Source: a virus. Taken from it: DNA of 64,000 nt. The stretch is from positions 1 to 64,000 of IMG/VR virus record IMGVR_UViG_3300034200_001536; one strand, given 5' to 3'. Positions within the stretch are counted from its first letter, which is position 1. The number at the start of each line of letters is the position of its first letter. The translations under genes were made by a program, and so were the position numbers. The notes beneath the pieces are model-generated. The model searched no databases, was not told the DNA's origin, and was given only the letters and a program-made list of their open reading frames with translations. This document shows, piece by piece, positions 42,314 to 58,845 of this stretch.

Positions 42314-42511
42314 ATGTCTGATAGTCAAAAATATGACGAAAAAACATTAATCTCGCTACTAAAAATAATGTTAGCTGTTCGTTCGGATTTATCAAAAGAA
42401 GAAAAAGAATCTGTTTTGAGATTAGCAGAACAAATAATTAAAAAAGGCAAAAAAGAAGATTATGAAGATAAACAAATCTTTCCTAACACGGATTATAAAA
42501 GAAGAAATTAA
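42314..42511 (+). CDS. Small charged protein (65 aa), function unknown
   Basis: The product is short, helical and Lys/Glu-rich (KTLISLLKIMLAVRSDLSKE). It starts one base after the primase stop and overlaps the next gene by 50 bases in another frame. No family was recognised. The coupling to primase suggests co-expression only. Confidence 0.5.
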   Translation: MSDSQKYDEKTLISLLKIMLAVRSDLSKEEKESVLRLAEQIIKKGKKEDYEDKQIFPNTDYKRRN

Positions 42512-42935
42512 GAAAGTAATATATGAAGAAGATATTGGTCCCGAAAAGGAACTAATAGATTTGTTTGTACAATATCGTAATTATTTTTCTAAAAATCCAA
42601 CTAAAAATAAAGATGAATTGCCAGACTTTGAAGCAATGATAAAACAAATTGCTCCAAATTATTCTCCTGAAGAAATTATTCATATGCTTCAAGGTAAAAT
42701 TGACCGTCAACTATTTTCATTTATTAAAGATATACTTTTACGTGATAAAAACATGAAAACACAAAGTGATAAACTTGATAATTACGAAATGTCTATAACT
42801 CCCGACGAGCAAAACGTTTATCAAGTCTATAATAAGCAAGACCCAGACCCCGGCTTTATGCGTGTACCAAAAGACGACGAAGCATATGACCAAGAAGATG
42901 TTCGTAAGGACCGTAAAACTTTAACTCAATCATAG
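42462..42935 (+). CDS. Protein with MK...IIKEE leader, function unknown (157 aa)
   Basis: The N-terminus MKINKSFLTRIIKEEIKKV contains an I12-K13-E14 triplet in the same register as several other small genes in this window (43210, 54046, 54473). I/L-x-Glu is the cleavage rule of T4-type prohead proteases, so the leader may target the protein to the capsid (inference). The rest is helical and acidic with a conserved-looking middle (LPDFEAMIKQIAPNYSPEEI). The start lies within the preceding small gene. Confidence 0.55.
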   Translation: MKINKSFLTRIIKEEIKKVIYEEDIGPEKELIDLFVQYRNYFSKNPTKNKDELPDFEAMIKQIAPNYSPEEIIHMLQGKIDRQLFSFIKDILLRDKNMKTQSDKLDNYEMSITPDEQNVYQVYNKQDPDPGFMRVPKDDEAYDQEDVRKDRKTLTQS

Positions 42936-42947
42936 GAAAATATTTTA

Positions 42948-43142
42948 ATGTCAGAACGTCCAGAAAGCGGTGGAAAAAGTGAAGGCAAAAGATGTGGCGG
43001 TGCTTGTAAGCATAGCAGCACATATCACCAAGTAAAATGGTTTGATAAATTTACAAGCATGTATTATTATGGTTGTGCATATGTAGATTGTAAATGCATG
43101 AATTATGTAGCAACTGATATTAAAAATACCGATATACGCTAA
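42948..43142 (+). CDS. Small Cys-rich, probably zinc-binding protein (64 aa)
   Basis: The product has six Cys and two His in 64 residues: KRCGGACKHSSTYHQVKWF, then YYYGCAYVDCKCMNYV. The spacing C-x3-C-x...-H and C-x4-C-x-C suggests a small zinc-binding fold. The first 12 residues are Gly/Ser/Lys-rich. A weak AGGA site precedes it. The role is unknown; its place among replication genes would fit a nucleic-acid-binding accessory protein. Confidence 0.5.
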   Translation: MSERPESGGKSEGKRCGGACKHSSTYHQVKWFDKFTSMYYYGCAYVDCKCMNYVATDIKNTDIR

Positions 43143-43169
43143 TTTTTTTTGTCTTACTGGCAAAAAAAA

Positions 43170-43178
43170 CTATTTACT
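43170..43178 (+). promoter_or_regulatory. Late-promoter-like box CTATTTACT
   Basis: A one-base variant of the late box lies 31 bases before the ATG at 43210, where AAGGAG gives a strong ribosome site. It separates a single small late-type gene from the surrounding replication genes. Confidence 0.5.
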
Positions 43179-43209
43179 GTAATTTTGCAGTATCAACAAG
43201 GAGAAAAAT

Positions 43210-43464
43210 ATGAAGATTACAAAAGATGATTTAAAGAAGCTTATTAAAGAAGAATTGACAAAAGAAATGTCTGCTCCAACACCTGTGCAAGAAGCACCTA
43301 TGCCAGAAGAATTAAGCGAAGCAAGCTTAAAAAGAGCTGCTGGTGTTATTTCTAAAGTTTTAAAATATCATAAAACAACAATACAAAAATACTATGGTCC
43401 AGATGCTGTGCAGGGGCTTGAAGAGGCATTAGAAGTTTTGCCAAAAATATGGGCAACTATTTAA
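43210..43464 (+). CDS. Small protein with MK...LIKEE leader (84 aa), possible capsid-targeted protein
   Basis: The N-terminus MKITKDDLKKLIKEELTK places I12-K13-E14 exactly where three other window proteins have I-x-Glu, and resembles in style the ten-residue T4 capsid-targeting leader that ends in I-A-E. A Pro/Glu-rich linker follows, then a helical, basic core (LKRAAGVISKVLKYHKTTIQ). It has its own late box and terminator, so it is a stand-alone late gene placed among early genes, as expected for an internal head protein. Function is inferred. Confidence 0.55.
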   Translation: MKITKDDLKKLIKEELTKEMSAPTPVQEAPMPEELSEASLKRAAGVISKVLKYHKTTIQKYYGPDAVQGLEEALEVLPKIWATI

Positions 43465-43502
43465 TAAACAAACTTGTAATAGAACAAAACTTGTAGTAAC
43501 AT

Positions 43503-43534
43503 GACCGTTAAGAATACCACTTAACGGTCTTTTT
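43503..43534 (+). terminator. Rho-independent terminator before the gp47-gp46 gene
   Basis: GACCGTTAAG (43503-43512) pairs with CTTAACGGTC (43520-43529) across AATACCA and is followed by five T. The ten-base stem is perfect. Confidence 0.88.
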
Positions 43535-43567
43535 GTATCGTGATAGTGTAAAGCATCTGGAGGTAGA

Positions 43568-46500
43568 ATGAAGATAGCGCACGTAGCGGACACACATATA
43601 AAAAACTTGAAGTACCACGATGAATATCGTGAAATTTTTAATAAGATGTATGAGATTATGCGTGAACAAAAAGTTGACGCTATTGTTCACTGCGGCGATA
43701 TTGCTCACACAAAAACACAAATCAGTCCTGAATTTGTTGATATGACAAGCGAGTTCTTTAAGAATCTTGCTTCTATCGCACCAACTTATATTATTCTAGG
43801 CAACCACGATGGAAACCTACGTAATGATTCACGTCAAGATGCAATTACGCCAATTGTTTCTGCACTAAATCTTCCTAATCTATTTCTCCTAAAAGACAGC
43901 GGAGAAATGGCGATTAGCGACGATGTGACATTAAATGTCATGAGTGTGTTTGACCAAGAAAATTGGGTTAAACCAGTTAATCCAGATAAGATTAATATTG
44001 CTCTCTTACACGGTTCTGTGTCTGGTGTTCAAACCGACACAAATTATGTAATGGAGCATGGTGAATTTACTGTAGATATTTTTGAAGGCCATGATTATGC
44101 TTTCCTTGGCGATATTCACAAGACAAATCAGATTCTTGATTTGGAAGGTCGTGTCCGATATCCCGGCTCTACCGTTCAACAAAACTTTGGCGAAACAGAC
44201 GATAAGGGTTTCTTAATTTGGGATATCCAAAGTAAGGAAAGCTTCAGCTGCAAACACTATGCCATTCCTAATCCTCGTCCATTCGTTACATTAGTATTGG
44301 ACGAAAACGGCGTATTGCCCGAGATTGACGTTAAGAAAGGTGCAAGAGTTCGTATCGTTGCTGACAAGAACGTTACGCTAGAAAAGGTTAAAAAGGCTAC
44401 AGAGGTCGTTAAAAGCCGTTTCCAGCCTGAGAGTGTAACCTTCGTTAACAAAGCGGTTATCTCTAAGGCATCACAAGATGAAATTAATTCTATTGGTCAT
44501 GCAGATAATTTACGCGACCTTGGTGTACAAGAACGTCTTATCCGCGATTATCTAAAAGATTTCAAGGCAGAAGAAGAAGTGGTAAACAAAGTTGTTGACC
44601 TAAACAAGAAGCTTTCTTCTGCTATTGAAGAAGGTGAAGAAATTAATCGTAATGTTCGCTGGTCCCTTAAAGAATTAGAGTGGGATAACCTATTTAATTA
44701 TGGCGAGGGCAATCGTGTTAATTTCCAAGACCTATCAGGAATCGTTGGTATTTTCGGCAAGAATTATTCTGGCAAATCTTCTATTGTTGACAGCATGCTT
44801 TATACTTTGTTTAATACCACTGCCAAAAACAACAGAAAAAACCTAAACGTCATCAACCAAAACAAAGAAAAAGGTCGTGGCAAAGTCAAGATTGAAATTG
44901 ACGATGGTGAATACGTCGTTGAACGCAAGTCTGAAAAGTATATCAAAAAGCTAAAAGGCGTTGAAACAATCGAAGCTAAAACAGATGTAGAATTTACTTC
45001 ATCCAATGAATCATTGAATGGTCTTGCTCGTAACGATACGGACAAGAATATTCGTCGTTTCCTTGGAACAGTTGATGACTTTTTCTTGACAAGCATGGCT
45101 AGTCAGTTTGGTTATCTTTCATTTATTTCTGAAGGCTCAACTAAGCGTAAAGAAATTCTTGCCAAGTTCCTTGATTTGGAAAACTTTGACAAGAAATTCA
45201 AGCTTGCAAAAGATGAAAGCGCAGAATTAAAAGGCTTGCTCAAAAAGCTTGAAGGCGTAGATTATAAGCGTGATATTGCCAATGCAGAAACACAACTTTC
45301 TGTTCTTGATAGCACGCTAGCTGAACAAAAAAGCCTTGTAGAGCAGCTACGTGGAAAAGTTATGGATGCAAATGAAACACTTTGTCAGTTACAAAAGAGT
45401 ATTGCTAATGTTCCAAACCTTGTTCTTAATTGGGACGATATCAACAGTCAATTAAATTCATATCGTGCGGATAGAAAGAGAATCGGTGAAGAAAATGTTT
45501 CTCTAGAAAGCGAAATTGCAAAGCTAGAAACTCTTTCACTAAAGATTGATGAATTCCTTTCTAATCTTGATGAAAAGGAATTGATGTTAAAGGACCAACA
45601 GCTTAAGTTTATTAACGACCAAGTAAGAATTTTGGAGCGAGATTACGGTCTTGCTACAAACGAAATTGCTGCGTCTGATAAAAAGATTAAGCTACTTGAC
45701 CAAGTTCCATGCGGCGATAAATTCCCAACATGTAAATTCATCAAAGATGCGTTTGCTGCAAAAGAATCCTATGATGATTTGGTAAAAAACCAATCATTAA
45801 TGGATGGTACTTTGCGTGAAACAAAAGAAAAGTTTAATGTTCTTGATGCCGAAGTATCTGATGGTTTGAAAAAGCTTTCTGATATCAAGAAGAAGCGTCT
45901 AGAAACAACCACAAAACTATCTTCTTGCCAGCTTAAATTGGAGAAGAATAAAAATACAGTTATCAATCTTGATAAAAAGATTGAAGAGGCAGAAGAAAAG
46001 CTAAAACTTTACAATGATAATCGTGAAGCTATTGAGAATTATGAAAAGCTTTTAGCTAATCGTGAAGATGCAAAGCGTAATGTTGTATTTTATACAAAGA
46101 AACTAACTGATATAGAGCATGAAATTGTAGAACTCTACAAAAATCACGGTTCTGTATCCGCTAAAATAGATATATTCCGTAAACAGGAAGCAGAATTACA
46201 AGATTTGCGTAAACAATATAGTGCTTATGATTTGTTTTTAACATGTATGCATCCAAGTGGTATATCTTATGAAATCATCAAGAGCAAACTACCGGAGATT
46301 AACCAAGAAATTGCCAAGATTTTGGCAAATGTCGTTGAATTCTCTATTTACCTTGAGAACGACGATGATAAATTGGATATTATGATTAAACATCCTAAGT
46401 ATGACGCTCGCCCACTTGAAATGGGCAGTGGTGCAGAAAAGACTTTAGCCTCTACAGCTATTCGTCTTGCCTTATTAAACGTTACAACCCTACCAAAAGG

Positions 46501-46696
46501 CGACATATTTATTATGGACGAACCCGGAACTGCTCTAGATGCAGAGAACCTAGATGGTTTTGTACGCATCTTAGAACTAATTAAGGGATATTTCAAAACT
46601 GTAATCTTGATTTCACATCTAGATAGCTTAAAAGATTGTGTAGATATGCAAATCGTAATCGACCGTAAGGATGGTTTTGCATCCGTTAATCAATAG
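43568..46696 (+). CDS. gp47-gp46: Fused recombination nuclease: Mre11-like gp47 plus Rad50-like gp46
   Basis: The 1042-residue product joins two proteins that are separate in T4. Residues 1-340 form an Mre11/SbcD metallophosphoesterase: D8/H10 (ADTH), D44 (HCGDIAH) and N79-H80-D81 (GNHD), followed by the LLHGS and FLGDIH motifs. Residues about 366-1042 form a Rad50/SbcC ATPase: Walker A G397-S404 (GKNYSGKS), long coiled coils, signature G953-S-G, and Walker B D984/E985 (FIMDEPGTALD). The hook region has C715 and C722 (CGDKFPTC) instead of the usual C-x-x-C. The complex makes 3' single-stranded ends for recombination-dependent replication. One uninterrupted frame runs through the junction. It has a strong GGAGG site. 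Confidence 0.92.
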   Translation: MKIAHVADTHIKNLKYHDEYREIFNKMYEIMREQKVDAIVHCGDIAHTKTQISPEFVDMTSEFFKNLASIAPTYIILGNHDGNLRNDSRQDAITPIVSALNLPNLFLLKDSGEMAISDDVTLNVMSVFDQENWVKPVNPDKINIALLHGSVSGVQTDTNYVMEHGEFTVDIFEGHDYAFLGDIHKTNQILDLEGRVRYPGSTVQQNFGETDDKGFLIWDIQSKESFSCKHYAIPNPRPFVTLVLDENGVLPEIDVKKGARVRIVADKNVTLEKVKKATEVVKSRFQPESVTFVNKAVISKASQDEINSIGHADNLRDLGVQERLIRDYLKDFKAEEEVVNKVVDLNKKLSSAIEEGEEINRNVRWSLKELEWDNLFNYGEGNRVNFQDLSGIVGIFGKNYSGKSSIVDSMLYTLFNTTAKNNRKNLNVINQNKEKGRGKVKIEIDDGEYVVERKSEKYIKKLKGVETIEAKTDVEFTSSNESLNGLARNDTDKNIRRFLGTVDDFFLTSMASQFGYLSFISEGSTKRKEILAKFLDLENFDKKFKLAKDESAELKGLLKKLEGVDYKRDIANAETQLSVLDSTLAEQKSLVEQLRGKVMDANETLCQLQKSIANVPNLVLNWDDINSQLNSYRADRKRIGEENVSLESEIAKLETLSLKIDEFLSNLDEKELMLKDQQLKFINDQVRILERDYGLATNEIAASDKKIKLLDQVPCGDKFPTCKFIKDAFAAKESYDDLVKNQSLMDGTLRETKEKFNVLDAEVSDGLKKLSDIKKKRLETTTKLSSCQLKLEKNKNTVINLDKKIEEAEEKLKLYNDNREAIENYEKLLANREDAKRNVVFYTKKLTDIEHEIVELYKNHGSVSAKIDIFRKQEAELQDLRKQYSAYDLFLTCMHPSGISYEIIKSKLPEINQEIAKILANVVEFSIYLENDDDKLDIMIKHPKYDARPLEMGSGAEKTLASTAIRLALLNVTTLPKGDIFIMDEPGTALDAENLDGFVRILELIKGYFKTVILISHLDSLKDCVDMQIVIDRKDGFASVNQ

Positions 46697-46706
46697 GAGA
46701 AACGTT

Positions 46707-46994
46707 ATGGCTAATATGGGATTAAAAGATGAAGTAAAGGAAGAATTAACAGACTTAGATAAACGTATGGAAGCAGAAAGAAAAAAGTTAGACGGTTCAC
46801 GCTTAGGATTGGTTGATTTAGTAACTGAAAAGTTTATTTCCCGTAAATTATTGGTATGGGCTATAGCTACCGGTCTTTTATGGACAGCAAAAATTACTCC
46901 TGACGAGTGGACAGCTATTACGTTAGGTTACGTAGGTATTGAAGGTATGGCAGATTTAGCAGTAAAATGGCGTTCATCGGGAAAAAAGGAATAA
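46707..46994 (+). CDS. Small membrane protein, holin candidate (95 aa)
   Basis: I choose the ATG at 46707 (AGGAG seven bases upstream) over an open start at 46671 inside the previous gene. The product has a charged helical N-terminus and two apolar segments (LLVWAIATGLLWTAKI, then WTAITLGYVGIEGMADLAVK). Size, two-segment topology and charged ends fit small phage holins, which time lysis by perforating the inner membrane. The next two genes also encode membrane proteins, making a plausible lysis cassette. No endolysin gene is adjacent. Confidence 0.5.
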   Translation: MANMGLKDEVKEELTDLDKRMEAERKKLDGSRLGLVDLVTEKFISRKLLVWAIATGLLWTAKITPDEWTAITLGYVGIEGMADLAVKWRSSGKKE

Positions 46995-46998
46995 TAAA

Positions 46999-47397
46999 AT
47001 GACTAAATTAAAACAATTATGGAATAAAATTAAGCTTTGGGTTGGTTTGTTTGTTGCAGGGCTTGTAGTAAGTTTTTTAGTATTCAGAAAAACTGTTGGA
47101 GATGGTTTAGAAGAGCAAAAAGAGCAATTAAAACAAGAAGAAGAGGCGAAATTAGCAGCACAAAAGAAACTAGAAGAAGAAAAAGTAAAACTAGAAGAGG
47201 AAAAACAGAAAGAAATAGCAAAAGCAGAAGAAGAAAAGAAACAAAAGCTAAAGGAAGCAGTAGAAAAGGCAAAACAAGAAAGAGATAGACTTAAAACTCT
47301 TGAAAAGCGTGACGCACAAGGTTTTATAATGGAAATGGAGCGTGAGTTAAGAGTAAAACCAAAGAAAAAGAAAGGTAAAAATAAGAGAAATGAATAA
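46999..47397 (+). CDS. Membrane-anchored coiled-coil protein, inner-spanin-like (132 aa)
   Basis: A single N-terminal membrane segment (LWVGLFVAGLVVSFLVF) is followed by an uninterrupted Lys/Glu helix (residues about 36-115) with heptad spacing and a very basic tail (KPKKKKGKNKR). An N-terminal anchor plus a long periplasmic coiled coil is the layout of inner-membrane spanin subunits such as Rz. The low-complexity sequence makes homology calls unreliable. It starts four bases after the holin candidate and overlaps the next gene by eight bases. Confidence 0.45.
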   Translation: MTKLKQLWNKIKLWVGLFVAGLVVSFLVFRKTVGDGLEEQKEQLKQEEEAKLAAQKKLEEEKVKLEEEKQKEIAKAEEEKKQKLKEAVEKAKQERDRLKTLEKRDAQGFIMEMERELRVKPKKKKGKNKRNE

Positions 47398-47881
47398 ATT
47401 CAAATCTTTAATCAGTATCTTTATGTTGCTAGTGTTTCTAGCGACACGGACTTCTATTGCCTATGCTTTGCCTCCCTCTTCTAGTCCAGATGCTGGATAT
47501 ATAGAAGGGGAAGACGAAGACGGTGACTATTCTATTGTTAAAGCCGGAGAAGAAGTTCCATATGATGGATTTCTTTTTGATTCTGAAGCCTTAATCAAGG
47601 TAATGGCCAATAAATCATTTGAACTGGATAAATTAAGAATAGAAAAAGACTTTGAAATACAAAAACTCAATATAGAGATTCTTACTTTAAAGAAACAACA
47701 TGAATTAGAACTTAAAATTAATAGTGATTTAACAGATAATATAATAAAGATAAAAGATAACAGAATAATACAGTTAGAAGATAGTAAAAAATATGATGAT
47801 TTAAAACTGTTTGGTTCAATGTTACTAGGAATGGCTTTATCAGTTACTATATTTTATGCTGCAGTTAAAATAACTAAATAA
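47390..47881 (+). CDS. Exported protein with C-terminal membrane anchor, possible lysis/spanin protein (163 aa)
   Basis: The N-terminus looks like a signal peptide (FKSLISIFMLLVFLATRTSI, likely cleaved after AYA). Next comes an acidic segment and AGEEVPYDGFLFDSEAL, a motif I recall in many phage membrane proteins. A helical coiled coil (about residues 80-135) leads to a C-terminal membrane segment (FGSMLLGMALSVTIFYAAV). Signal plus C-terminal anchor resembles single-chain spanins, but there is no lipobox Cys. Context (two membrane genes upstream) supports a lysis-related role. Confidence 0.5.
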   Translation: MNKFKSLISIFMLLVFLATRTSIAYALPPSSSPDAGYIEGEDEDGDYSIVKAGEEVPYDGFLFDSEALIKVMANKSFELDKLRIEKDFEIQKLNIEILTLKKQHELELKINSDLTDNIIKIKDNRIIQLEDSKKYDDLKLFGSMLLGMALSVTIFYAAVKITK

Positions 47882-47884
47882 ATT

Positions 47885-48271
47885 ATGAACAAAAAAGACC
47901 CTAATTACATAGCCGCATTAGAAAAAGCAGTAAAAGAAAAGTATGGAGAACAAGCAACAATGCATCCTAAATATTTCTGGAATCAAGAGAAGGAAAGAGA
48001 ATACGTAGCCGACACTAAAGAAACCGTTAAAAAAGAGCTAAGTAATGAACAATCCAGAGAAAAAATCGATTTAGGCGGGATTTTAATACCCAAGAAACTA
48101 ATTAATAAAAATGAACAGAAGTCTTGTTCTGTCTGTAAACAGTATAGTTTTGATAAAAAAGATGATGTTTTTTTAAATAAATTCTCTACCTGCCAACGTT
48201 GCTATGTTAAGCATATAGAAGATAGAGAAGAAAGATGGAATTCAGGTTGGCGTCCTAATGGAGATAAATAA
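47885..48271 (+). CDS. Zinc-finger-containing small protein upstream of terminase (128 aa)
   Basis: The C-terminal third has two Cys pairs (SCSVCKQYSF and STCQRCYVKH) that would bind one zinc. The N-terminal part is charged and helical. The last residues (EERWNSGWRPNG) are Trp-rich. It lies just before the packaging genes. A role in packaging or as a small DNA-binding protein is possible, but it does not look like the T4 small terminase gp16 and I do not name it. Confidence 0.5.
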   Translation: MNKKDPNYIAALEKAVKEKYGEQATMHPKYFWNQEKEREYVADTKETVKKELSNEQSREKIDLGGILIPKKLINKNEQKSCSVCKQYSFDKKDDVFLNKFSTCQRCYVKHIEDREERWNSGWRPNGDK

Positions 48272-48781
48272 ATGGCTAGCATTCTAGAAGTTGTAAATGG
48301 AATTTCACAAGCAATACACGCTAAGCATCATGGTGGTGCTGAAGTAGGCTTAAAGCGTGAATCAGAAGACCTTGTACAAGGAGTTTCTATTTACGACCCC
48401 AGAATGATTGACGGTTTTGGTATTCAATATCAAGGAAACATGTTGATATTAAAATATCACAGTGAAATGCCTTTAACCAAAGTGCATGATAAGAATTTCG
48501 AAACTGATATTCGTCGTACTATGAAAGACATTATTGCTTTTATCAAATCTGAATACAAAAAAGTAACTAAAAAGTCTTTAGATTTAACTGAACATGGCGA
48601 TGTTAACGTTTTAGTACAAAGCGCTAATCGTAGAACTGCTTACGTTAACGCAACCCAATCATATCAAATTGGAAACGTAGAAGGTTATAACAAACAAGAC
48701 AGTAAACCAGAACAATCTTATGCTGATATTGCTAAGCGCTGGTTAATGAATGTTAAACAACCAAAGACATATCTTAAATAG
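48272..48781 (+). CDS. Conserved protein between the zinc-finger gene and terminase (169 aa)
   Basis: The 169-residue product has a mixed alpha/beta N-terminal two-thirds (GFGIQYQGNMLILKYHSEMP; DFETDIRRTM-type helix) and a C-terminal tail. It starts immediately after the preceding stop and ends 16 bases before the large terminase gene. Small terminase subunits often occupy this slot, yet the sequence does not show the expected coiled coil. The function is unknown. Confidence 0.5.
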   Translation: MASILEVVNGISQAIHAKHHGGAEVGLKRESEDLVQGVSIYDPRMIDGFGIQYQGNMLILKYHSEMPLTKVHDKNFETDIRRTMKDIIAFIKSEYKKVTKKSLDLTEHGDVNVLVQSANRRTAYVNATQSYQIGNVEGYNKQDSKPEQSYADIAKRWLMNVKQPKTYLK

Positions 48782-48797
48782 GTAATAAGGTAATGGC

Positions 48798-50375
48798 ATG
48801 GCGTATAAACTATCTAAAGAGGAAATTACTAAAGAAATCCTAAAGTGCGGCAAAGACCCAGCCTACTTCTTAGATAATTACGCCAAGATTGTTCATCAAA
48901 GTAAAGGTTTAATACCATTTAGAACTTTTAAGTTCCAAAAAGAGTTATTAAACGATTTCCATGACCATCGATATAACGTAATTTTGAAATCCCGTCAAAT
49001 GGGTATTTCAACAATTGTATCTGGTTATATTGCTTGGATGCTTTTGTTCCACAAAGAACGCAACGTTCTTGTAATGGCAACTAAATTAAATACTGCTATT
49101 GAAATAGTAGAAAAAGTAAAAGATATTATTGATTCAGTTCCAAGCTATGTCAAAATAGCTGACATAACAATTAATAATAAAACTAAACTTGAATTAAGTA
49201 ACGGTTCTAAAATTCAAGGTGTACCAACTTCAAAAGATGCAGGTCGTTCTCAAGCTCTATCATTGTTAGTAATTGACGAAGCTGCACACGTCGAAGATAT
49301 GGATGATTTATGGACCGGTTTATTACCAACAATTTCTACTGGTGGTCGTTGTATCGCACTATCAACTCCTAATGGTGTAGGAAATTGGTTTCATAAAACA
49401 TATGTTGATTCTGAAAGTGGTTTAAACAATTTTAAACCTTCTAAATTGCCATGGCATATGCATCCTGAATATACTCAGGAATGGTTTGACAATATGACAC
49501 GCAATATGAGCAAGCGTCAAGTAGCTCAAGAATTCGAATGTAATTTCAATGCATCTGGCGAAACGGTAATGCATGCTGACGACATTACTAAATTAAAGAA
49601 ATTTATTTGCGAACCAAAACATAGAACTTGGATTGATAGAAATTATCATATTTGGAAAGAATACGATTCTAACGGCTCTTATTTATTAACTGCCGACGTT
49701 GCAAGAGGTGATGGAAAAGATTATTCTGTTTTTCACGTTTTAGATGTTAAAAACATGGAACAAGTAGCAGAATACCAAGGAAAAGTAGATTTAGATAATT
49801 TTGCTAAATTGCTTTTTGACGCTGGAAAAGAATACGGTAATTGTATGATAGTTGTAGAAAATAATAACGTTGGATTTGCTGTATTAACAAAATTAATTGA
49901 CATGCGTTATCCAAATGTTTATTATTCGCAAAAAGGTTCACAAGATTTTATTGATAGTACTAGTGCTCAATATAGTTCGAATTCAGTTCCCGGTTTTACA
50001 ACTACGATGAAAACTCGTCCATTGATTGTAGCCAAATTAGAAGAATTTATTCGTAATAAAAGTATTAAAATTAATTCTCAACGTGTTATAAATGAATTAG
50101 ATACTTTCGTTTGGGTAAATGGTAGGCCAGAAGCACAAAAAGGCTATAACGACGATTTGGTAATGTCTTTAGCAATTGGTTGTTGGGTAAGAGATACAGC
50201 TATTATTAACAACGAAAGAAATTTAGAGTATTCTAAGGCATTCTTAAATTCAATCATTAAAAACGGTAATTATTTAGATACATCAGTGCGTAGTTTTCAA
50301 AGTGAAGATAAAGCTCGTAAAATTCAACAAGCTCAACAACAATATAAAGATTTCTTGTGGCTTATTAAAGGTTAA
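48798..50375 (+). CDS. gp17: Large terminase subunit gp17 (packaging ATPase/nuclease)
   Basis: The 525-residue product has the two-domain design of gp17. The ATPase domain shows the divergent Walker A (S65-RQMGIST-72) and Walker B (VIDEAAH, D160/E161). The RNase H-like nuclease domain shows D300 (LTADVARGDGKD), the VVENNNVG strand and the D452/D453 pair (YNDDLVMSLA). It cuts concatemeric DNA and drives it into the prohead through the portal. It is slightly shorter than T4 gp17 (about 610). The portal gene follows five bases downstream. Confidence 0.95.
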   Translation: MAYKLSKEEITKEILKCGKDPAYFLDNYAKIVHQSKGLIPFRTFKFQKELLNDFHDHRYNVILKSRQMGISTIVSGYIAWMLLFHKERNVLVMATKLNTAIEIVEKVKDIIDSVPSYVKIADITINNKTKLELSNGSKIQGVPTSKDAGRSQALSLLVIDEAAHVEDMDDLWTGLLPTISTGGRCIALSTPNGVGNWFHKTYVDSESGLNNFKPSKLPWHMHPEYTQEWFDNMTRNMSKRQVAQEFECNFNASGETVMHADDITKLKKFICEPKHRTWIDRNYHIWKEYDSNGSYLLTADVARGDGKDYSVFHVLDVKNMEQVAEYQGKVDLDNFAKLLFDAGKEYGNCMIVVENNNVGFAVLTKLIDMRYPNVYYSQKGSQDFIDSTSAQYSSNSVPGFTTTMKTRPLIVAKLEEFIRNKSIKINSQRVINELDTFVWVNGRPEAQKGYNDDLVMSLAIGCWVRDTAIINNERNLEYSKAFLNSIIKNGNYLDTSVRSFQSEDKARKIQQAQQQYKDFLWLIKG

Positions 50376-50380
50376 ATAAA

Positions 50381-52336: not shown

Positions 52337-52337
52337 A

Positions 52338-53150
52338 ATGAAACATAATAAGAAAAGAAATACCGCTTTTCTTTACGAAATTCTTTTACGTGAAGGCACA
52401 AAGGCATCTTTAGAAAAAGATATTGACCGTTTAAAAACAATTAAAACTTTAATAGTTGAATACTTTCATCCACAAGCAGTATTAGGCTATGAGCTATCTC
52501 TTTATAAAGCTCTTCGTTCTTCAGAAATAGATAAGTCTATTGGTGAAAAGTATTTAACCGAAGTTAAAAACCGTCATAATAATATTGATAAACGCCTATT
52601 ATTTAATGAACAAACAAAATTAATTAACAAGATTAATAAATCTTTAGGTGCAGAAGTATATAACAATTTTGTTCCTTATTATAAAGACTTAGCAACAATA
52701 GCGCAAATCTTTAATGACACGACTTCAATAAAAGAAAAAATTCTTCTTGAGCAAGCATTATTGAAAGATTTGCAAACTTTAAATGAAAACGGCAAACAAG
52801 AATTAAAACCTATAGATGCTATTGTATATAAAACATTCGTTAAGAAATTTAATGATAAGTATTCTAGTTTGTTATCAGAACAAAAAGATTTACTAACAAA
52901 ATATGTTAGTTCTTTTGCTGATAATAATTTAGAACTTAAATTATATTTAAATGAAGAAATAGACAGATTAAAAGCAAGAATTAATTCTGCATTACAACTA
53001 GAAGAAATTAAAGTTGATAATAGAATGCAAGAAAAAACTAAAAAATTGTTATCCGTTCTTCAAGAATTTAAATCTAAAAAAGATTTAACACCTGATATGC
53101 TAGAAAATGTATTAAAAATACAACAATTTGTTCATGAGGTAGAAAGTTAA
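52338..53150 (+). CDS. Helical protein between portal and protease (prohead core candidate)
   Basis: I place the start at the ATG at 52338 (GGAG at 52324-52327, ten bases upstream); an ATG at 52329 overlaps the portal stop and lies too close to that site. The product (270 aa) is almost entirely helical and Lys/Glu-rich (KRNTAFLYEILLREGTKASL ... LLSVLQEFKSKKDLTPDMLE). Its place between gp20 and gp21 corresponds to the T4 core proteins gp67 and gp68, so an internal scaffold role is plausible, without recognisable sequence identity. Its last base is the first of the next ATG. Confidence 0.55.
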   Translation: MKHNKKRNTAFLYEILLREGTKASLEKDIDRLKTIKTLIVEYFHPQAVLGYELSLYKALRSSEIDKSIGEKYLTEVKNRHNNIDKRLLFNEQTKLINKINKSLGAEVYNNFVPYYKDLATIAQIFNDTTSIKEKILLEQALLKDLQTLNENGKQELKPIDAIVYKTFVKKFNDKYSSLLSEQKDLLTKYVSSFADNNLELKLYLNEEIDRLKARINSALQLEEIKVDNRMQEKTKKLLSVLQEFKSKKDLTPDMLENVLKIQQFVHEVES

Positions 53151-53671
53151 TGCTTAAAATTATTGTTAAAGGTACAACTGGCGAACAAAAAGAAGTAAAT
53201 ATTCGCAAAACACTTTCTGGAGATTTAATGTTGAGAGAACATCCAGAAATTGATATTATTGTTATACCTGAAAAACAAAAAGTATTAGTTTTACCAAAAG
53301 ATGAACAAAATGACCACGTATATAAATTACAAGAACTTTTATTTAAATATATGATTCAAAAAGGAGTAATATTACCAGAAAGCGTATTTGCTGGTAACGT
53401 TTATGGTTCTTTGCAAGGTAACTATCCTCAACAAACCCCAGATGGCGTAGACTCTTTACAAGTTGTTATATACAATCTTGCTAATTTTATTGAAGAAGAG
53501 CGTCCTAAGTACGAATATGAAAAAGCTTACGAAGAACAAATGGAACAAGAACTTCTTGTTCCTGATACAGAAGATTCTACAGAACTAGGCGAAGTACCAC
53601 AAGAACCATTCAAGGGTTCTATACCAAAATATGGCTTCCCAACCCGTGGTATTTATCGTTACAATTATTAG
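53150..53671 (+). CDS. Conserved head-cluster protein (173 aa), function unknown
   Basis: The N-terminal 80 residues are a small alpha/beta domain (LKIIVKGTTGEQKEVNIRKT; DIIVIPEKQKVLVLPKD). The second half is acidic, then ends in an aromatic tail (KYGFPTRGIYRYNY). It overlaps the preceding stop by one base. I recall proteins of this kind between portal and protease genes in T4-type marine phages, but not with a known role. A core or head-completion function is inferred from position. Confidence 0.55.
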   Translation: MLKIIVKGTTGEQKEVNIRKTLSGDLMLREHPEIDIIVIPEKQKVLVLPKDEQNDHVYKLQELLFKYMIQKGVILPESVFAGNVYGSLQGNYPQQTPDGVDSLQVVIYNLANFIEEERPKYEYEKAYEEQMEQELLVPDTEDSTELGEVPQEPFKGSIPKYGFPTRGIYRYNY

Positions 53672-53682
53672 GATACTTTATA

Positions 53683-54486
53683 ATGAAATTAATAAAAGAA
53701 AACTCTCAATTAATATTGGAATATTCTTCCTTACAAGAAGCGTGGTATCACTATTTATCTGGAGTTGGCGGTGCAGTTTCACAAGAAATTAAAGATTTAA
53801 TTGATAAATCAAAATTATTACCTAAAGATGAGCAAGACAAAGTTTTAAATTTTTTAAATAAAGCACATGCCGCAAAAAAAGCAGGTAATAAAGAAGAATA
53901 TCTTAAATATATAGGTATGGCCGTGCAGGCAACAAGACAAGAAATGGCTTTGGGAATACAACAACGTCAATCTAAAAAAATCGTTCCCCCGTCCCCACCC
54001 CCTGAAGCATACGATGATGTTTTAGAATTAAACGAGGAAATAAAAATGAAAATTACACAACAACAATTGAAGCAAATTATCAACGAAGAAATTAACAAAA
54101 TGTCTGAAGAAGGTGAATTAGACGAATTTTTAAATTATTTTAAAGGTGCTGGTGGAGCAGCTGTAGGTGACGTTGGCGGTGCAATAAAAAGAGGAGCAGA
54201 AAAAGTAGCTGCTAAAGCTGGCGAGTATCACAAAGCAGGTCAAACCGCCAGCGTTAAAGCAGATGTAGCTAAATCTTTAAGTCGCCTACAAATAAGTATG
54301 ACTAAAATGAAAACAGACATTGATAATTTACAACAACGTGCTGTAAAACTAGGTCTAAATCTAGGATTAGATAAGATTGCTAACCAAATTAAAAACCAAA
54401 TTGAACCAGCGGTCGTTGCTGCAGCAAAAAGATTAGGCTCCGCACAATCATCACCAGTTACCGAAAAAATAGATGAAAGCAAATAG
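53683..54486 (+). CDS. Prohead-associated protein with internal start (267 aa)
   Basis: The N-terminus MKLIKENSQLILEYSSLQEA has an L-I-L-E site at residues 10-13. The first half is helical with a Pro-rich hinge (IVPPSPPPEA). At residue 122 an ATG (54046) follows a good GAGGA site and begins MKITQQQLKQIINEEINKMS, which is itself a typical leader with I12-N13-E14. The second half has a Gly/Ala-rich stretch (GGAAVGDVGGAIKRGAEKVA) and a coiled coil. The gene may make two products or be a fusion of two leader-bearing proteins. It overlaps the next gene by 14 bases. Confidence 0.55.
   Translation: MKLIKENSQLILEYSSLQEAWYHYLSGVGGAVSQEIKDLIDKSKLLPKDEQDKVLNFLNKAHAAKKAGNKEEYLKYIGMAVQATRQEMALGIQQRQSKKIVPPSPPPEAYDDVLELNEEIKMKITQQQLKQIINEEINKMSEEGELDEFLNYFKGAGGAAVGDVGGAIKRGAEKVAAKAGEYHKAGQTASVKADVAKSLSRLQISMTKMKTDIDNLQQRAVKLGLNLGLDKIANQIKNQIEPAVVAAAKRLGSAQSSPVTEKIDESK
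54046..54486 (+). CDS. Likely internal in-frame product of the 53683 gene (146 aa)
   Basis: The ATG at 54046 is preceded by GAGGA with a seven-base gap, a better ribosome site than that of the full-length start. The resulting protein starts MKITQQQLKQIINEEINK, in the same register as the leaders at 42462 and 43210. It would consist of the Gly/Ala-rich segment and a coiled coil. Whether both products are made cannot be told from sequence. Confidence 0.45.
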   Translation: MKITQQQLKQIINEEINKMSEEGELDEFLNYFKGAGGAAVGDVGGAIKRGAEKVAAKAGEYHKAGQTASVKADVAKSLSRLQISMTKMKTDIDNLQQRAVKLGLNLGLDKIANQIKNQIEPAVVAAAKRLGSAQSSPVTEKIDESK

Positions 54487-54988
54487 ACAAATACTTTTAC
54501 AATTAATCTTAGAAGTATTAAGTGAAGAAGATATCCGTGATAAGTACGGATATCTTATAGCTACAGATGTTCCAAAATTAAAAAAAGATAAATATCAAAT
54601 TTCTGATAAAGAAATAGTTTTTATCTTGCAGCCACTTATTTCGTTTGTTAATCAAGAATACCCTAAAATTTCTAATGAAGTTTTACGAGAAATGATAGAG
54701 GATTTAGTAAATATAAAAAAACTAAATCCAGAATTAGAAAAAGCAGTAGGAATATTTAATAAAAAATATGATTCTGCTTTTTCTGTCAAACAAATAAAAA
54801 ACATGATGCTTGTTTTTAAAGTAGCTGACAATTTAAGAGGCGTGCATAATTTGATAAATTTCTATGAACAAGTTACTAAAAGAGAAAAAATAAATTTATC
54901 TTCTTATCAACCTTCAAAAGAAATTCCTAGAGAACCAACACAAAAACTTAAAGAAAAGAAAGTTAGAGTAAGATATAAATGCAATTAA
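54473..54988 (+). CDS. Head-cluster protein with MK...LILE leader (171 aa)
   Basis: The N-terminus MKANRQILLQLILEVLSEED has I12-L13-E14 in the same register as the other leader-bearing proteins, fitting the I/L-x-Glu rule for prohead protease sites. The remainder is helical with Ile/Lys-rich segments and a very basic C-terminus (KLKEKKVRVRYK), as expected of an internal DNA-associated head protein. It overlaps both neighbours, by 14 and 10 bases. Function is inferred from leader and location. Confidence 0.55.
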   Translation: MKANRQILLQLILEVLSEEDIRDKYGYLIATDVPKLKKDKYQISDKEIVFILQPLISFVNQEYPKISNEVLREMIEDLVNIKKLNPELEKAVGIFNKKYDSAFSVKQIKNMMLVFKVADNLRGVHNLINFYEQVTKREKINLSSYQPSKEIPREPTQKLKEKKVRVRYKCN

Positions 54989-55245
54989 TAACTTTTATAT
55001 TAGCTTGTTATGGCATGACAATGATAGTTGTATATGGAAAAATATTTGAACCTATTAGACCAAATCACTACTTCTTTCGCTGCACAATGTGTATGGGATT
55101 TTGGATAGGATTATTTAATTGTTTTATGATTGAATTGCCCTTTAACGCTTTTACATCTGGCTGTATAAGTGCAGGAACATCTTATTTTTTAAGCCGCCTT
55201 GTTGATGATGATGGTATACTAATAAAATTGAAGAAAAGCAATTAA
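54979..55245 (+). CDS. Small membrane protein with Cys-x-x-Cys motif (88 aa)
   Basis: The product has an N-terminal apolar segment (LITFILACYGMTMIVVYG), a loop, and then FFRCTMCMGFWIGLFNCFMI, which combines a C-x-x-C pair with a second membrane segment. The CxxC-x-GFW-x-G arrangement resembles the DUF1360-type family of small membrane proteins found in bacteria and phages, whose role is not known. It overlaps the preceding gene by ten bases. A late box follows within six bases of its stop. Confidence 0.55.
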   Translation: MQLITFILACYGMTMIVVYGKIFEPIRPNHYFFRCTMCMGFWIGLFNCFMIELPFNAFTSGCISAGTSYFLSRLVDDDGILIKLKKSN

Positions 55246-55250
55246 AACGA

Positions 55251-55259
55251 CTATTTATA
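55251..55259 (+). promoter_or_regulatory. Late-promoter-like box CTATTTATA before a tiny transcription unit
   Basis: This perfect copy of the window's late box is followed after 10 bases by GGAGGTG and an ATG at 55280. It opens the short unit that ends in a hairpin at 55356-55379. Confidence 0.6.
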
Positions 55260-55279
55260 ATTGATTGGAGGTGTTGCTT

Positions 55280-55351
55280 ATGAGAGAACAGATTATTTAC
55301 ACAAGACGTTACTTATTGCAACCCGTTAGACGTTGCTGCAACGGTAGCTGA
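55280..55351 (+). CDS. Possible 23-residue peptide gene or structured small RNA
   Basis: An ATG with a strong GGAGGTG site opens 23 codons ending at TGA. The peptide is very basic, with six Arg and a Cys pair (starts MREQIIYTRR, ends RRCCNGS). The same DNA is rich in short inverted repeats (CGTTG/CAACG at about 55331-55343; GTTGC/GCAAC spanning the ORF), so it may instead act as an RNA. It is framed by a late box and a terminator-like hairpin, and gp21 follows. It could be a leader peptide or attenuator for gp21. Confidence 0.4.
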   Translation: MREQIIYTRRYLLQPVRRCCNGS

Positions 55352-55355
55352 ATTT

Positions 55356-55381
55356 AGCCCCGATGAAATATTCGGGGCTTT
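55356..55381 (+). terminator. Terminator-like hairpin before gp21
   Basis: AGCCCCGA (55356-55363) pairs with TCGGGGCT (55372-55379) across TGAAATAT. Only TTTAA follows, a weak T-tract, so termination may be partial. The hairpin lies 19 bases before the gp21 ATG, which has no Shine-Dalgarno. Confidence 0.6.
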
Positions 55382-55398
55382 AACCTTTATACAAAACT

Positions 55399-56010
55399 AT
55401 GTCAAAAGAATTACTTAGAGAATGGTACGAATTATGCGAAGGTGGCGTTTGTCAAGACTTATTGACAGAGGCTGAGAAACTTCATGTTAAAAACGGTGGA
55501 TTGATGCTTACGGGTGTCATGCAAAGAGCCGATAAAGAAAACGGTAATGGTCGTGTTTACGGCAAAACTATTTTAGAACGTGAAATAGAAAATTATAAAA
55601 AGCTTGTTGAAGACCGTAGGGCTTTAGGCGAATTAGACCATCCAGAAGATTCCGTAGTTAATCTTAAAAATGTTTCACATATGGTTACAGGTATTTGGTG
55701 GGATGGCGATGCAGTAATGGGAAAAGTTAAGGTTTTAGACACCCCATCAGGAAAAATTCTTCGTTCTCTAGTGGAAAGCGGCGTAAAACTTGGTATTTCT
55801 AGCCGTGGTTTAGGTAGCACACGTAAAGAAATGGGAAAAACCATTGTAGAAGATGATTTTCAGTTAATCTGCTTTGATTTCGTTCAAGAACCAAGCACTC
55901 CCGGCGCATTTATGATGAGTGAAGGCAAAAAACGCACTCTAGACCCAAAAGTTATTTGGTCAAAAGCTGACCGCTTAAACAGATTACTCAACGATATCGT
56001 AAAAGGATAA
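55399..56010 (+). CDS. gp21: Prohead protease gp21
   Basis: The 203-residue product matches T4 gp21 in length and motifs: N-terminal NGRVYGKTILEREIENY, H81 in GELDHPEDS, and the catalytic Ser in LGISSRGLGS (S134/S135). It is the serine protease that matures the prohead by cutting after I/L-x-Glu and then digests the core. Its own N-terminus has LLTEA (residues 21-25), a possible self-cleavage site. The ATG has no ribosome-binding sequence; a hairpin and a TATACA sequence lie just upstream, so expression may be unusual. Confidence 0.93.
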   Translation: MSKELLREWYELCEGGVCQDLLTEAEKLHVKNGGLMLTGVMQRADKENGNGRVYGKTILEREIENYKKLVEDRRALGELDHPEDSVVNLKNVSHMVTGIWWDGDAVMGKVKVLDTPSGKILRSLVESGVKLGISSRGLGSTRKEMGKTIVEDDFQLICFDFVQEPSTPGAFMMSEGKKRTLDPKVIWSKADRLNRLLNDIVKG

Positions 56011-56017
56011 AACTAAA

Positions 56018-56419
56018 ATGTCGGAATTTCAATATAAAGCAGGATTAAATCACGTTGGCAGCTATCAAATAAGTGGAATACCATATGTAACTGGCGGCTT
56101 AACAGCGCCAACCGGTTCTGGAACTCCTATTTCTATTGATTTTCCAAGTGTTACACAATTTATAACCGTTACAAATGGTTCTACAGTTGCTAGTAACGCC
56201 TATCTTAGAATTGGATATAGCTTAAGCGGTACTCAGGGAACAAACTATACTTTAGTTCCTCCAATGTCTTCTATAACTTATGAAGTAAGAGCAACAAAAT
56301 TATTTTTGCTAGGTAACACATCGGCAATTACAGGTCTAGTAAGCGTTGCAGCAGGACTCACAGGAATTACCGGTTATGATTTAGCAACTATTTATTCTGG
56401 CAGTAACGGAATCGGATAA
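56018..56419 (+). CDS. Small beta-rich head/virion protein (133 aa)
   Basis: The product is almost entirely short strands (VGSYQISGIPYVTGG; FPSVTQFITVTNGS; YLRIGYSLSGTQGTNYTLVP) and looks like a compact virion beta-sandwich. I recall proteins with this VGSYQ-SG-PY-TG start as widespread in T4-type marine phages. Its location between the protease and an S74 fibre gene suggests a head decoration protein or a base for that fibre. It ends eight bases before the next ATG. Confidence 0.6.
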   Translation: MSEFQYKAGLNHVGSYQISGIPYVTGGLTAPTGSGTPISIDFPSVTQFITVTNGSTVASNAYLRIGYSLSGTQGTNYTLVPPMSSITYEVRATKLFLLGNTSAITGLVSVAAGLTGITGYDLATIYSGSNGIG

Positions 56420-56427
56420 CATAAATA

Positions 56428-58293
56428 ATGAGTACCCTTATAGATTGCGCTGATACTTTAAATTGTGCTACGTTATCCGGAAGCGATAACGTTAATGTTG
56501 CTTTTCAGGCAGGCGTTCCAAATAAAATTGTTGTTTCTTTATCACAATCAGTTGTTGGATTATCTAAATTAGAAGTTACCGGAAATGCGATTATATCTAA
56601 TAATAGTTCTAATGCGGCACTCCGTATAACACAAACAGGAGCCGGCGAAGCCATACGTGTTGAAGATAGTGCTAATCCCGATAGCACACCATTTGTTGTA
56701 AGTTCCGTTGGTAATGTTGGTATTGGTACATCATCTCCAAGTGAAAAACTAGAGGTTAGCAATCCAACGGACTATTGTGCAATTCGCGTATCAGCAAACC
56801 CAACTGTCAACACGGCTAATGAAGCACAAGTTCATCTTAATAGTGGCTTAAACGGTTATACAAGACTTTTTTATCGTGAATCAGATAAAGCTTTTGGTAT
56901 TTACCATAGTGGTACCGCAGGTCCAGCAACAAAGTTCCGTATTAATGACAGTGGTATGTCGCTTATGGAAGGAGGCGGAAATGTTGGTGTTGGTGTTCAA
57001 TCACCGGCACAAAAATTAGATATTCGTGGTGGGACAGAAGTAAATGCTCAAGTGTATGCTGATAGTGCTGGTGCAACAAGAGCAGATTTGCGTTTACGTG
57101 TTAATAATACCACTGGTGACAACTATATTACTTTTGGTGATTCAACTGCTTTTGATGTAGGAAGAATACAATATAATCATAATTCTGATTATATGGCCTT
57201 TTATGTTAATTCATCAGAAGATATGAGAATTACATCAAATGGGAATGTTGGTATTGGAACAGCTACTCCTCAAAGCATACTACACATAGAAGCAAATGGT
57301 TATACAAATCAAACTATAAGAAGTGCAGGTGCCTTCGCTGGTTCATATATATTAGCTCAACGGTCTAAGGGCACTTTAGAATCTAAAACCGCTTTAGGAA
57401 TCGATGATTACGCTGGTGGTTTGTTGTTTTCTGGATATGATGGAACTAATTTTATAAATCTTGCCGGTGTGTATGGAATAGTTAATGGAACTCCCGGCAC
57501 TAATGATATGCCGGGTGCTTTAGCATTTTCTACTACAGCCGATGGAAGTAGTACGATTACTGAAAGAATGAGAATTGACAATACGGGTAGTGTTGGTATT
57601 GGAACTGCAACCCCATCCACGAAGTTGCATGTTAGAGGCGATGTATCTGTTGAAGACACAAATCCAACTGTATCTTTTAAAAACACTTCTGGTAATCAAA
57701 TAGGCTCTTTGGCGCACAATGGCTCTGGTGGCCGTATGGATTTAATAAATGAAGAAGCTAATTTATTAAGACTTGGAACTAACGGAGGGCCATTAGTATA
57801 TATTGCTTCTTCTAACGTTGGTATAAATATTGATACGCCAACTCAAACATTAGATATTAATGGAACTTTAAGAATTAGAAACTTAGTAGCAGGTACCAAT
57901 ACTGCTCCCGGTAGAGCGGCCACTGGTGAAATAACAGCTTTAAGTTCCGATAAAAGATTAAAAAAAGATATTTCAATTCTTTCTGATTCTCTTAATAAAG
58001 TTAAAAATTTAAGAGGTGTTACATTTAAATGGGATAAAACAAATGAACCTGACTTCATTATCGACGATTCAGAAAAAGAAAAAGAACAAATTGGTTTAAT
58101 AGCGCAAGAAGTGGAAGCAGTATATCCACAATTAGTTTATTTAAATGGCGTTAAAGATTATAAAGGTGTAAGATACCCAGAACTTACTGCTGTATTAATT
58201 GAGGCTGTTAAAGAATTATCGTCACTTAACGATGAATTAAAACAAAAATTAGATGATGTAATGACAAGAATATCTGCTTTAGAAAATAAATAG
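56428..58293 (+). CDS. Fibre protein with C-terminal S74 self-cleaving chaperone
   Basis: The 621-residue product has repeated GNVGIGT-x-P-x-x-KL segments (five or so copies between residues 95 and 480), typical of trimeric fibre shafts. The C-terminus carries a peptidase S74 intramolecular chaperone: LSSDKRLKKDI (S507, K512), then GLIAQEVEAVYPQLV and a terminal coiled coil. S74 domains trimerise the fibre and then cut themselves off just before the Ser. The gene lies in the head cluster rather than with the tail fibres, so it may be a head fibre or decoration. Confidence 0.88.
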   Translation: MSTLIDCADTLNCATLSGSDNVNVAFQAGVPNKIVVSLSQSVVGLSKLEVTGNAIISNNSSNAALRITQTGAGEAIRVEDSANPDSTPFVVSSVGNVGIGTSSPSEKLEVSNPTDYCAIRVSANPTVNTANEAQVHLNSGLNGYTRLFYRESDKAFGIYHSGTAGPATKFRINDSGMSLMEGGGNVGVGVQSPAQKLDIRGGTEVNAQVYADSAGATRADLRLRVNNTTGDNYITFGDSTAFDVGRIQYNHNSDYMAFYVNSSEDMRITSNGNVGIGTATPQSILHIEANGYTNQTIRSAGAFAGSYILAQRSKGTLESKTALGIDDYAGGLLFSGYDGTNFINLAGVYGIVNGTPGTNDMPGALAFSTTADGSSTITERMRIDNTGSVGIGTATPSTKLHVRGDVSVEDTNPTVSFKNTSGNQIGSLAHNGSGGRMDLINEEANLLRLGTNGGPLVYIASSNVGINIDTPTQTLDINGTLRIRNLVAGTNTAPGRAATGEITALSSDKRLKKDISILSDSLNKVKNLRGVTFKWDKTNEPDFIIDDSEKEKEQIGLIAQEVEAVYPQLVYLNGVKDYKGVRYPELTAVLIEAVKELSSLNDELKQKLDDVMTRISALENK

Positions 58294-58298
58294 ATATC

Positions 58299-58427
58299 AT
58301 GAAAATTTTAACAACCGTAACAGCATCAGCGGGTTTAGACGTATCTTCGACTAATACGGATACTATAAAATTAGGTAGTTCTAATACAAATTATCAAAAT
58401 TCATTAAACAATAACATTTCTTCATAA
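58299..58427 (+). CDS. 42-residue ORF resembling the N-terminus of the tail-fibre family
   Basis: The ORF starts six bases after the S74 gene and encodes MKILTTVTASAGLDVSSTNT followed by 22 Ser/Asn-rich residues. The start closely matches fibre N-termini (LKILTVLTAS at 34029, IKVLSNLTAS at 36443). It has no Shine-Dalgarno. It could be a decayed fibre gene or a small adapter peptide. Confidence 0.4.
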   Translation: MKILTTVTASAGLDVSSTNTDTIKLGSSNTNYQNSLNNNISS

Positions 58428-58455
58428 TAGAATACTATATATATCGTGAGGATAT

Positions 58456-58845
58456 ATGAAAAAAGAACAACTAAAACAAATTATAAAACCATTAATAAAA
58501 GAATGCCTTATGGAAGTTCTTGTAGAAGAAGGTTTTACAAAAATGTTATCAGAGTCTATTAAACAGCCAACTATAGTTCAACAAACAAGAACAATAGAAA
58601 AAGATATAAATCAACAGTCTGTAACACAAAAAAAATCAATAACAGAATTACAAGAAGCAAAGAAAAAAATGTTAGATGCAATAGGTAATTCTGGCTTTGA
58701 TGTCTTTGCCGGTACTCAACCGTTAAAAGAAGACCAAGAGATTGTTAATAGCGACCCCGGTATAGATATTAGCAAATTATTAGAAAATAAACAAGTTTGG
58801 AAACAAACATTAAATGCCATGAATGGCAAGAAAGTAAAAGAGTAA
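58456..58845 (+). CDS. Small helical head-cluster protein with MK...LIKE leader (129 aa)
   Basis: The N-terminus MKKEQLKQIIKPLIKECLME is a variant of the leader seen in other head-cluster genes, with an L-I-K-E site at residues 13-16. The rest is charged and helical with a Gln/Thr-rich linker. The upstream site is GTGAGGATAT. It lies between the S74 fibre and the bS21-like gene in the prohead block. A role as an internal or core protein is inferred. Confidence 0.5.
   Translation: MKKEQLKQIIKPLIKECLMEVLVEEGFTKMLSESIKQPTIVQQTRTIEKDINQQSVTQKKSITELQEAKKKMLDAIGNSGFDVFAGTQPLKEDQEIVNSDPGIDISKLLENKQVWKQTLNAMNGKKVKE

Follow-up and report, generated by a model that had tools for sequence, protein, structure and literature searches.

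Background

In bacteriophage T4, each of the internal proteins IPI, IPII and IPIII inhibits one particular restriction enzyme of the host (PMC12373910). It has been suggested that T4-like phages use the capsid targeting sequence to package varied proteins, and in IPIII residues 4 and 7 (Tyr, Phe) serve targeting and residues 8 and 10 (Ile, Glu) serve processing (PMC9026906). The T4 internal proteins are unrelated, fast-changing small proteins behind a short leader that ends in (I/L)-x-Glu (MKTYQEFIAE in IPII and IPIII), in a phage that encodes the S77-family prohead protease gp21 and the major capsid protein gp23. Here we describe leaders of a comparable kind in a 64,000-nucleotide stretch of DNA from an uncultured T4-related phage (positions 1 to 64,000 of IMG/VR record IMGVR_UViG_3300034200_001536; hereafter the window), which is part of a 103,214-base record whose other 39 kb were also read. 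Several small proteins of the window begin with the leader, and the same phage encodes gp21 and gp23. Our conclusion is that these leaders most probably serve as capsid targeting sequences, in a head-loading system of the T4 type. No earlier description of them was found in the literature searched, including by motif letters, a search whose coverage left out most subscription journals.

A shared leader at the N-terminus of unrelated proteins

Genes were called with a simple script that took the longest open reading frame (ORF), ATG starts and a Shine-Dalgarno preference; all genes described below lie on the + strand. Class I leaders begin the 157-residue protein at 42462..42935 (MKINKSFLTRIIKE14-EIKKVIYE22-E), the 84-residue protein at 43210..43464 (MKITKDDLKKLIKE14-ELTKEM) and a 146-residue protein from an internal start at 54046..54486 (MKITQQQLKQIINE14-EINKMSEEG), which has GAGGA 7-8 bases upstream. 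The 171-residue protein at 54473..54988 starts with a class I-like leader, MKANRQILLQLILE14-VLSE18. An earlier reading of the window (the sequence-only reading) had named these four starts and two near variants, at 53683 and 58456, and all six are present where it placed them, with the residues it gave.

Leader classes were defined by regular expressions, and all counts are raw, with kinship among the phages ignored. Relatives of the phage were collected as 160 loci (2.1 Mb) fetched with gp23 and gp21 as queries, and the class I expression M[KR][ILVFY][TSN]xxx[L]xx[I][I]xE was tested at residue 1 against internal positions. The leader, in outline MK[ILV]TxxxxLxxIIKE, stood at residue 1 in 70 of 1980 complete unique proteins, and the same leader body was found internally at 6 of 518,933 positions; all six were preceded by Met and are therefore read as internal or mis-called starts. 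In IMG/VR, scanned independently, a degenerate DNA version of the leader matched at least 120 stretches of viral contigs, and a scrambled pattern of the same residues matched none across the whole collection. The search for the leader on other genes that the sequence-only reading had proposed was thus productive among the relatives; on the remaining 39 kb of the contig the strict class I expression found no additional leader. When the part behind residue 24 was compared by blastp, 355 leader proteins fell into 291 groups without detectable similarity, some of which remote homology may merge, in agreement with the earlier claim that the proteins are otherwise unrelated.

Such a similarity might also arise without any functional peptide, from the composition of start regions, from conservation of a DNA element or as the trace of recent gene duplication. 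Starts rich in MK and AAA are common in AT-rich phages, and a few leaders are nearly identical in DNA within one contig. Against this stand the scrambled pattern and the variation of synonymous codons at the conserved class I residues. Identity was 0.69-0.71 in the leader codons, within and between contigs, but 0.32 in the 30 bases upstream and 0.28 in codons 23-38; since the flanking DNA is at background, selection acts on the peptide. Homogenisation of leaders inside a genome was slight (0.711 versus 0.686). The cargo domains, which belong to unrelated enzymes, also speak against this explanation. We consider this explanation in all its forms highly improbable; start-codon bias and a shared DNA element were rejected on the scrambled-pattern, synonymous-codon and flank-identity controls.

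The (I/L)-x-Glu site of class I leaders

Class I conservation, computed with one sequence per cargo group (291), was high at residues 1-5, 8, 9 and 11-16, moderate up to residue 22 and at background from residue 23. Ile12 and Glu14 were each conserved in 98% of the groups. With residue 14 left unconstrained, Glu was found in 333 of 353 leaders, Gln in 5, Lys in 5 and Asp in 2; the rarity of Asp fits a processing role, because in T4 an Asp in the corresponding place prevents processing and not targeting. In 224 of 286 class I leaders another [ILVMF]xE site follows, with its last residue between 18 and 28 and mostly at 21 or 22; in a control stretch the motif was present in 56 of 286. Class I leaders may therefore be cut at residue 14, at about residue 22 or at both, and redundant propeptide sites are described for phiKZ-type phages (PMC9026906).

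The codons of the two adjacent glutamates differ in these 291 leaders: for Glu14, GAA is used in 264 and GAG in 22, and for Glu15, GAA in 136 and GAG in 122. This asymmetry may reflect avoidance of GAGGAG. Structure prediction of the 42462 protein gave a helix at residues 5-21 with low confidence (predicted local distance difference test score, pLDDT, of 61, too poor for fold comparison).

Short class I leaders found no match by tblastn in annotated phage genomes, where the low-complexity filter probably masks the leader, so that absence is not implied; the 50 kb examined of Rhodothermus phage RM378 held no clear leader set. A cultured relative, Flavobacterium phage immuto, carries within L284:1676-8932 (NC_055915 111675-118931) a class I-like start, MKKSQLRQIIKEALD, on gp080, and neighbouring genes have other possible leaders, QFRRMQKLAGIITE-S, FNLRSFLTENKLTKNAQLLKE and FDLKKFLVENKLTTNSKILKE.

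A second leader class with the spacing of T4

Outside class I, the motif [ILVMF][ILV]xE was enriched at residues 10-15 of proteins (15 versus about 4 per 1000 positions), and control motifs (Asp/Gln, Lys, reversed-order and shifted-Glu versions) were flat there. This enrichment led to class II, MKLLLENWRKYLxE, whose regular expression gave 115 matches, some of them false (terminases, for example). Among 49 dereplicated members chosen for W/F8 and E14, Trp8 was conserved in 91%, Phe/Tyr11 in 95% and Leu/Ile/Met/Val12 in 97%, with no conservation from residue 15 on. With residue 14 free, 42 of 56 have Glu there, and almost every exception holds an [ILV]xE shifted by 1-2 residues.

The class II residues W8, F/Y11, L12 and E14 have the same spacing as the T4 capsid targeting sequence, four residues later, and class II, unlike class I, is aromatic at both of the targeting positions, which were mapped in IPIII only and may not define all such sequences. 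As a blind control, the motif [FYW]xx[FYW][ILV]xE near the N-terminus picked ipII, ipIII and gene 61.1 from 269 called T4 genes; in the present clade the same motif was found in 39 protein groups versus 1.5 expected. The class II leader gave one weak match by tblastn against annotated phage genomes, and its profile matched none of the solved structures.

T4 gene 61.1 (L359; NC_000866, 18966-19130), annotated as hypothetical, starts MKTFKEFIKE-D, a near-copy of the IPII/IPIII leader. Two further N-terminal (L/I/M)xE motifs were noticed (L231:7100, L306:11900, L344:3751, L292:17152, L335:16191; L227:6283, L183:678, L262:7207 and others), LLxExTxRxFMxLAxI and IDPRYF(L/M)xE, the latter on about 15 proteins.

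Matching sites in the prohead protease and capsid protein

The gp21-type protease is encoded at 55399..56010 (Peptidase_S77, E 3e-30) and gp23 at 60596..62365 (Gp23, E 5e-71), as the sequence-only reading had recognised, together with the gp23 LRE-S site, which lies at residues 58-61 in the window. Throughout the clade gp23 has a propeptide site LLRE60-S (Glu in 99%), and gp21 has conserved N-terminal LLRE8 (Glu in 96%) and LLTE24 (Glu in 98%). These sites share their shape with the IIKE of the leader.

Of 34 leader contigs, 24 carry S77; of 28 control contigs (longer than 30 kb and picked by an arbitrary 14-mer), none does. It was found in 12 of the 14 leader contigs above 100 kb; the other two are uninformative because the head region is cut off or missing, G012 ending within gp20 and G008 having no part of that region. 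Conversely, the strict leader pattern was present in 13 of 20 contigs chosen by gp21/gp23 similarity with leaders disregarded, versus 0 of 28 random contigs. In bacterial assemblies the only gp23 relative, 57% identical, belongs to an Acidiferrobacteraceae genome assembled from a metagenome (L472, PBOB01000007.1); this is either a weak hint at the host or an error of binning.

The gene immediately before gp23, at 59226..60575, encodes a gp22-like acidic scaffold candidate. Its position, its composition and its homologues before gp23 in relatives make its product a likely docking partner of the leaders.

Hypervariable cargo

The cargo of the genes at 42462, 43210, 53683 and 54046 had no relative in the fetched loci, where neighbouring window genes gave 108 matches (52329), 101 (53150) and 20 (58849). 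For the gene at 54473 a single orthologue was found (L084), with the leader kept as MKFNRQKIVALILE14. In relatives, the slot from the 53150 homologue to gp21 holds one conserved membrane-type gene and 0-4 variable genes, and most of these variable genes beside gp21 begin with a leader. The sole fixed gene of the slot is represented in the window by a small membrane-type protein at 54979..55245 with the motif CTMCMGFWIG; across window and relatives the motif reads C(P/T)MCMGFW(V/I)G. The genes at 42462 and 43210 lie elsewhere, beside the gp46/47-like nuclease gene at 43568, and in several contigs leaders likewise adjoin a gp46/47-like gene. Large contigs carry 2-20 class I and class II leader genes each.

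Leader proteins are mostly of 70-250 residues, and most have no family match or one. Class I cargo includes pentapeptide repeats, L,D-transpeptidase, GNAT and HD domains. Class II cargo includes S-adenosylmethionine lyase (L302:6356-8320 and L328:2771-3352), ART-PolyVal (L330:7302-7832) and NUDIX (L171:11293-11751), together with GNAT and a match to protein kinase; ParB_N and nucleotidyltransferase matched weakly. Such domains fit proteins that act as infection begins, which is suggestive and does not prove injection itself. Class II genes also occur in tandem runs of at least 7 genes with mostly unrelated cargo, including ADP-ribosyltransferase, which resemble effector islands (L290:12719-18972 and L330:4890-8982).

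The cargo is acidic on average: behind residue 22, the median net charge per 100 residues is -3.7 in class I and -4.0 in class II. The sequence-only reading had offered injected or DNA-associated proteins; DNA-associated basic proteins were accordingly rejected as the rule.

The ORF at 53683..54486 (267 residues) starts MKLIKENSQLILE13 and has the class I leader of 54046 at residue 122. Because the 54046 start lies in frame inside it, this ORF holds two leader-cargo units. It could yield two proteins through internal initiation at 54046 or through a gp21 cut at the internal leader. Its first leader is weak and unclassified, fitting both classes poorly, so that of the two near variants proposed earlier this one has the residues and is a weaker case.

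A conserved leader-like gene downstream of gp21

The second near variant, the 129-residue gene 3' of gp21 at 58456..58845, starts MKKEQLKQIIKPLIKE16, an N-terminus much like a class I leader into which Lys-Pro has been inserted. The gene is single-copy, has about 95 homologues and is conserved past its leader-like start. On these sequence comparisons it is a fixed core gene rather than variable cargo, and likewise a weaker case; its product is probably a prohead core component. Structure prediction for the family gave a predicted template modelling score (pTM) of 0.23, too poor for fold comparison.

This gene bears on another explanation, in which the leader does target the prohead core and its proteins are assembly or scaffold factors only, degraded or expelled and not ejected into the host. 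A conserved leader-like gene beside gp21 speaks for that explanation, as does the finding that in T4 gp21 cuts gp22, gp67 and gp68 to pieces (PMC9026906). The cargo, however, is unrelated and hypervariable, and S-adenosylmethionine lyase, ADP-ribosyltransferase and Nudix proteins have no obvious assembly role. A purely structural function is for these reasons quite improbable.

A model for head loading and its weighing

In the mechanism that we favour, loading into the head, a helical N-terminus of 14-22 residues, with hydrophobic residues at 3, 8, 11 and 12, basic residues between them and Glu14, would, as in T4, dock the cargo in the prohead core, built here by the gp22-like scaffold. Activated S77 gp21 would then cleave behind (I/L)-x-Glu, at residue 14, near residue 22 or at both, as is expected at the gp23 LLRE-S; the conserved leader site and its match to the gp21 and gp23 sites point to this protease. 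The freed cargo would stay in the head and be ejected into the host with the DNA, by analogy with T4 and in keeping with the cargo domains, for which a counter-defence or takeover role may be proposed. Cargo genes would be exchanged freely behind the conserved leader.

The restriction of the leader to the N-terminus, the scrambled control, the 291 unrelated groups and the T4-like spacing of class II support this mechanism, as do the gp21/gp23 LLRE and LLTE sites, the S77 co-occurrence and the variable cargo beside gp21. Further support comes from the near-constant Glu14, from enzyme domains of the kinds usual in proteins that are injected or that modify the host, and from the displaced but intact [ILV]xE of the class II exceptions. 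All comparative tests thus fit the earlier proposal that the leaders direct proteins into the prohead, where gp21 trims them. Its more specific claim was a cut behind residue 14. This is likely in class II and in the 43210 protein, which has the clearest predicted mature N-terminus, at residue 15, because its leader holds a single [IL]xE site; for most class I leaders the sequences leave the position ambiguous.

Several observations weigh on the other side. Class I, the class of the window, has L8 and I11 and so is without the T4 targeting aromatics, and its conservation reaches past Glu14 as far as about residue 22, an extent not predicted by a simple cleaved tag of 14 residues. Many leader genes lie far away from head genes. 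T4-type late promoters (TATAAATA) were not enriched upstream of leader genes, so that late expression is unsupported in this way, and in the literature no virion proteomics was found for any leader-bearing phage. All leader genomes belong to one clade, and the linkage to S77 may reflect ancestry; since the phages are all related, the co-occurrence amounts to consistency and not to independent dependence.

Some of these points would also suit a leader that is a docking helix for an intracellular partner, such as host RNA polymerase, the membrane, the replisome or another phage protein, with Glu14 on the binding face and the proteins never in the virion. An amphipathic Lys/hydrophobic helix is a generic binding element, the low-confidence helix predicted for the 42462 protein agrees with one, and both the distance from head genes and the conservation past Glu14 can be read in its favour. 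A binding face does not account for a residue 14 that is specifically Glu rather than any polar residue and whose exceptions keep a displaced [ILV]xE, nor for gp21 and gp23 sites of the same shape and the resemblance of class II to the mapped T4 sequence. We therefore regard an intracellular docking role as unlikely.

Loading into the head may extend to something broader, which we put forward tentatively as somewhat less probable than not: a parcel-label system in which interchangeable leader classes load up to about 20 effectors per genome, tandem fusions such as 53683-54486 are cut by gp21 into separate injected proteins, and the head is a modular delivery vehicle for hundreds of uncharacterised counter-defence or takeover proteins throughout this one large T4-related clade.

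Hundreds of almost unannotated proteins bear one readable tag. The same short tag, probably cut off, is found on hundreds of unrelated small proteins, most likely for loading into the head and injection. If this is true, the packaging and injection of orphan phage proteins could be predicted from sequence alone, which would provide a long list of anti-defence and host-takeover candidates as well as new tags for loading proteins into phage heads.

Comparison with known systems

The closest parallel is with the T-even internal-protein loci, in which hypervariable cargo stands at fixed loci behind a conserved leader, an arrangement matched here. The leader is 14-22 residues long here and 10-19 in the T4 internal proteins, and class I differs from the T4 leader in being rich in Lys and Ile, without aromatics and with a frequent second site. 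In the present clade there are two or more leader classes, a genome can hold as many as about 20 leader genes, and the cargo groups number in the hundreds. The T4 internal proteins are described as basic, unlike the average cargo here, and they are packaged proteins, as the leader proteins are predicted to be.

T4 Alt is a virion ADP-ribosyltransferase with a short N-terminal propeptide cut by gp21, and one class II cargo here is an ART-PolyVal protein; Alt, however, carries its own leader, MELITELFDE, which is not common to many proteins. In phiKZ and SPN3US, many internal head proteins are ejected and are trimmed by the prohead protease at redundant propeptide sites, and the available parts of PMC9026906 and PMC5694885 describe no single leader common to hundreds of unrelated proteins; this clade, unlike those phages, is T4-type by gp23 and S77. 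The polyvalent proteins, predicted to be packaged and injected, overlap with the cargo in ADP-ribosyltransferase, ParB-like, Nudix and GNAT domains (PMC5512222). They are large, multidomain and defined by domain syntax, whereas the leader proteins are mostly small and single and are defined by their leader.

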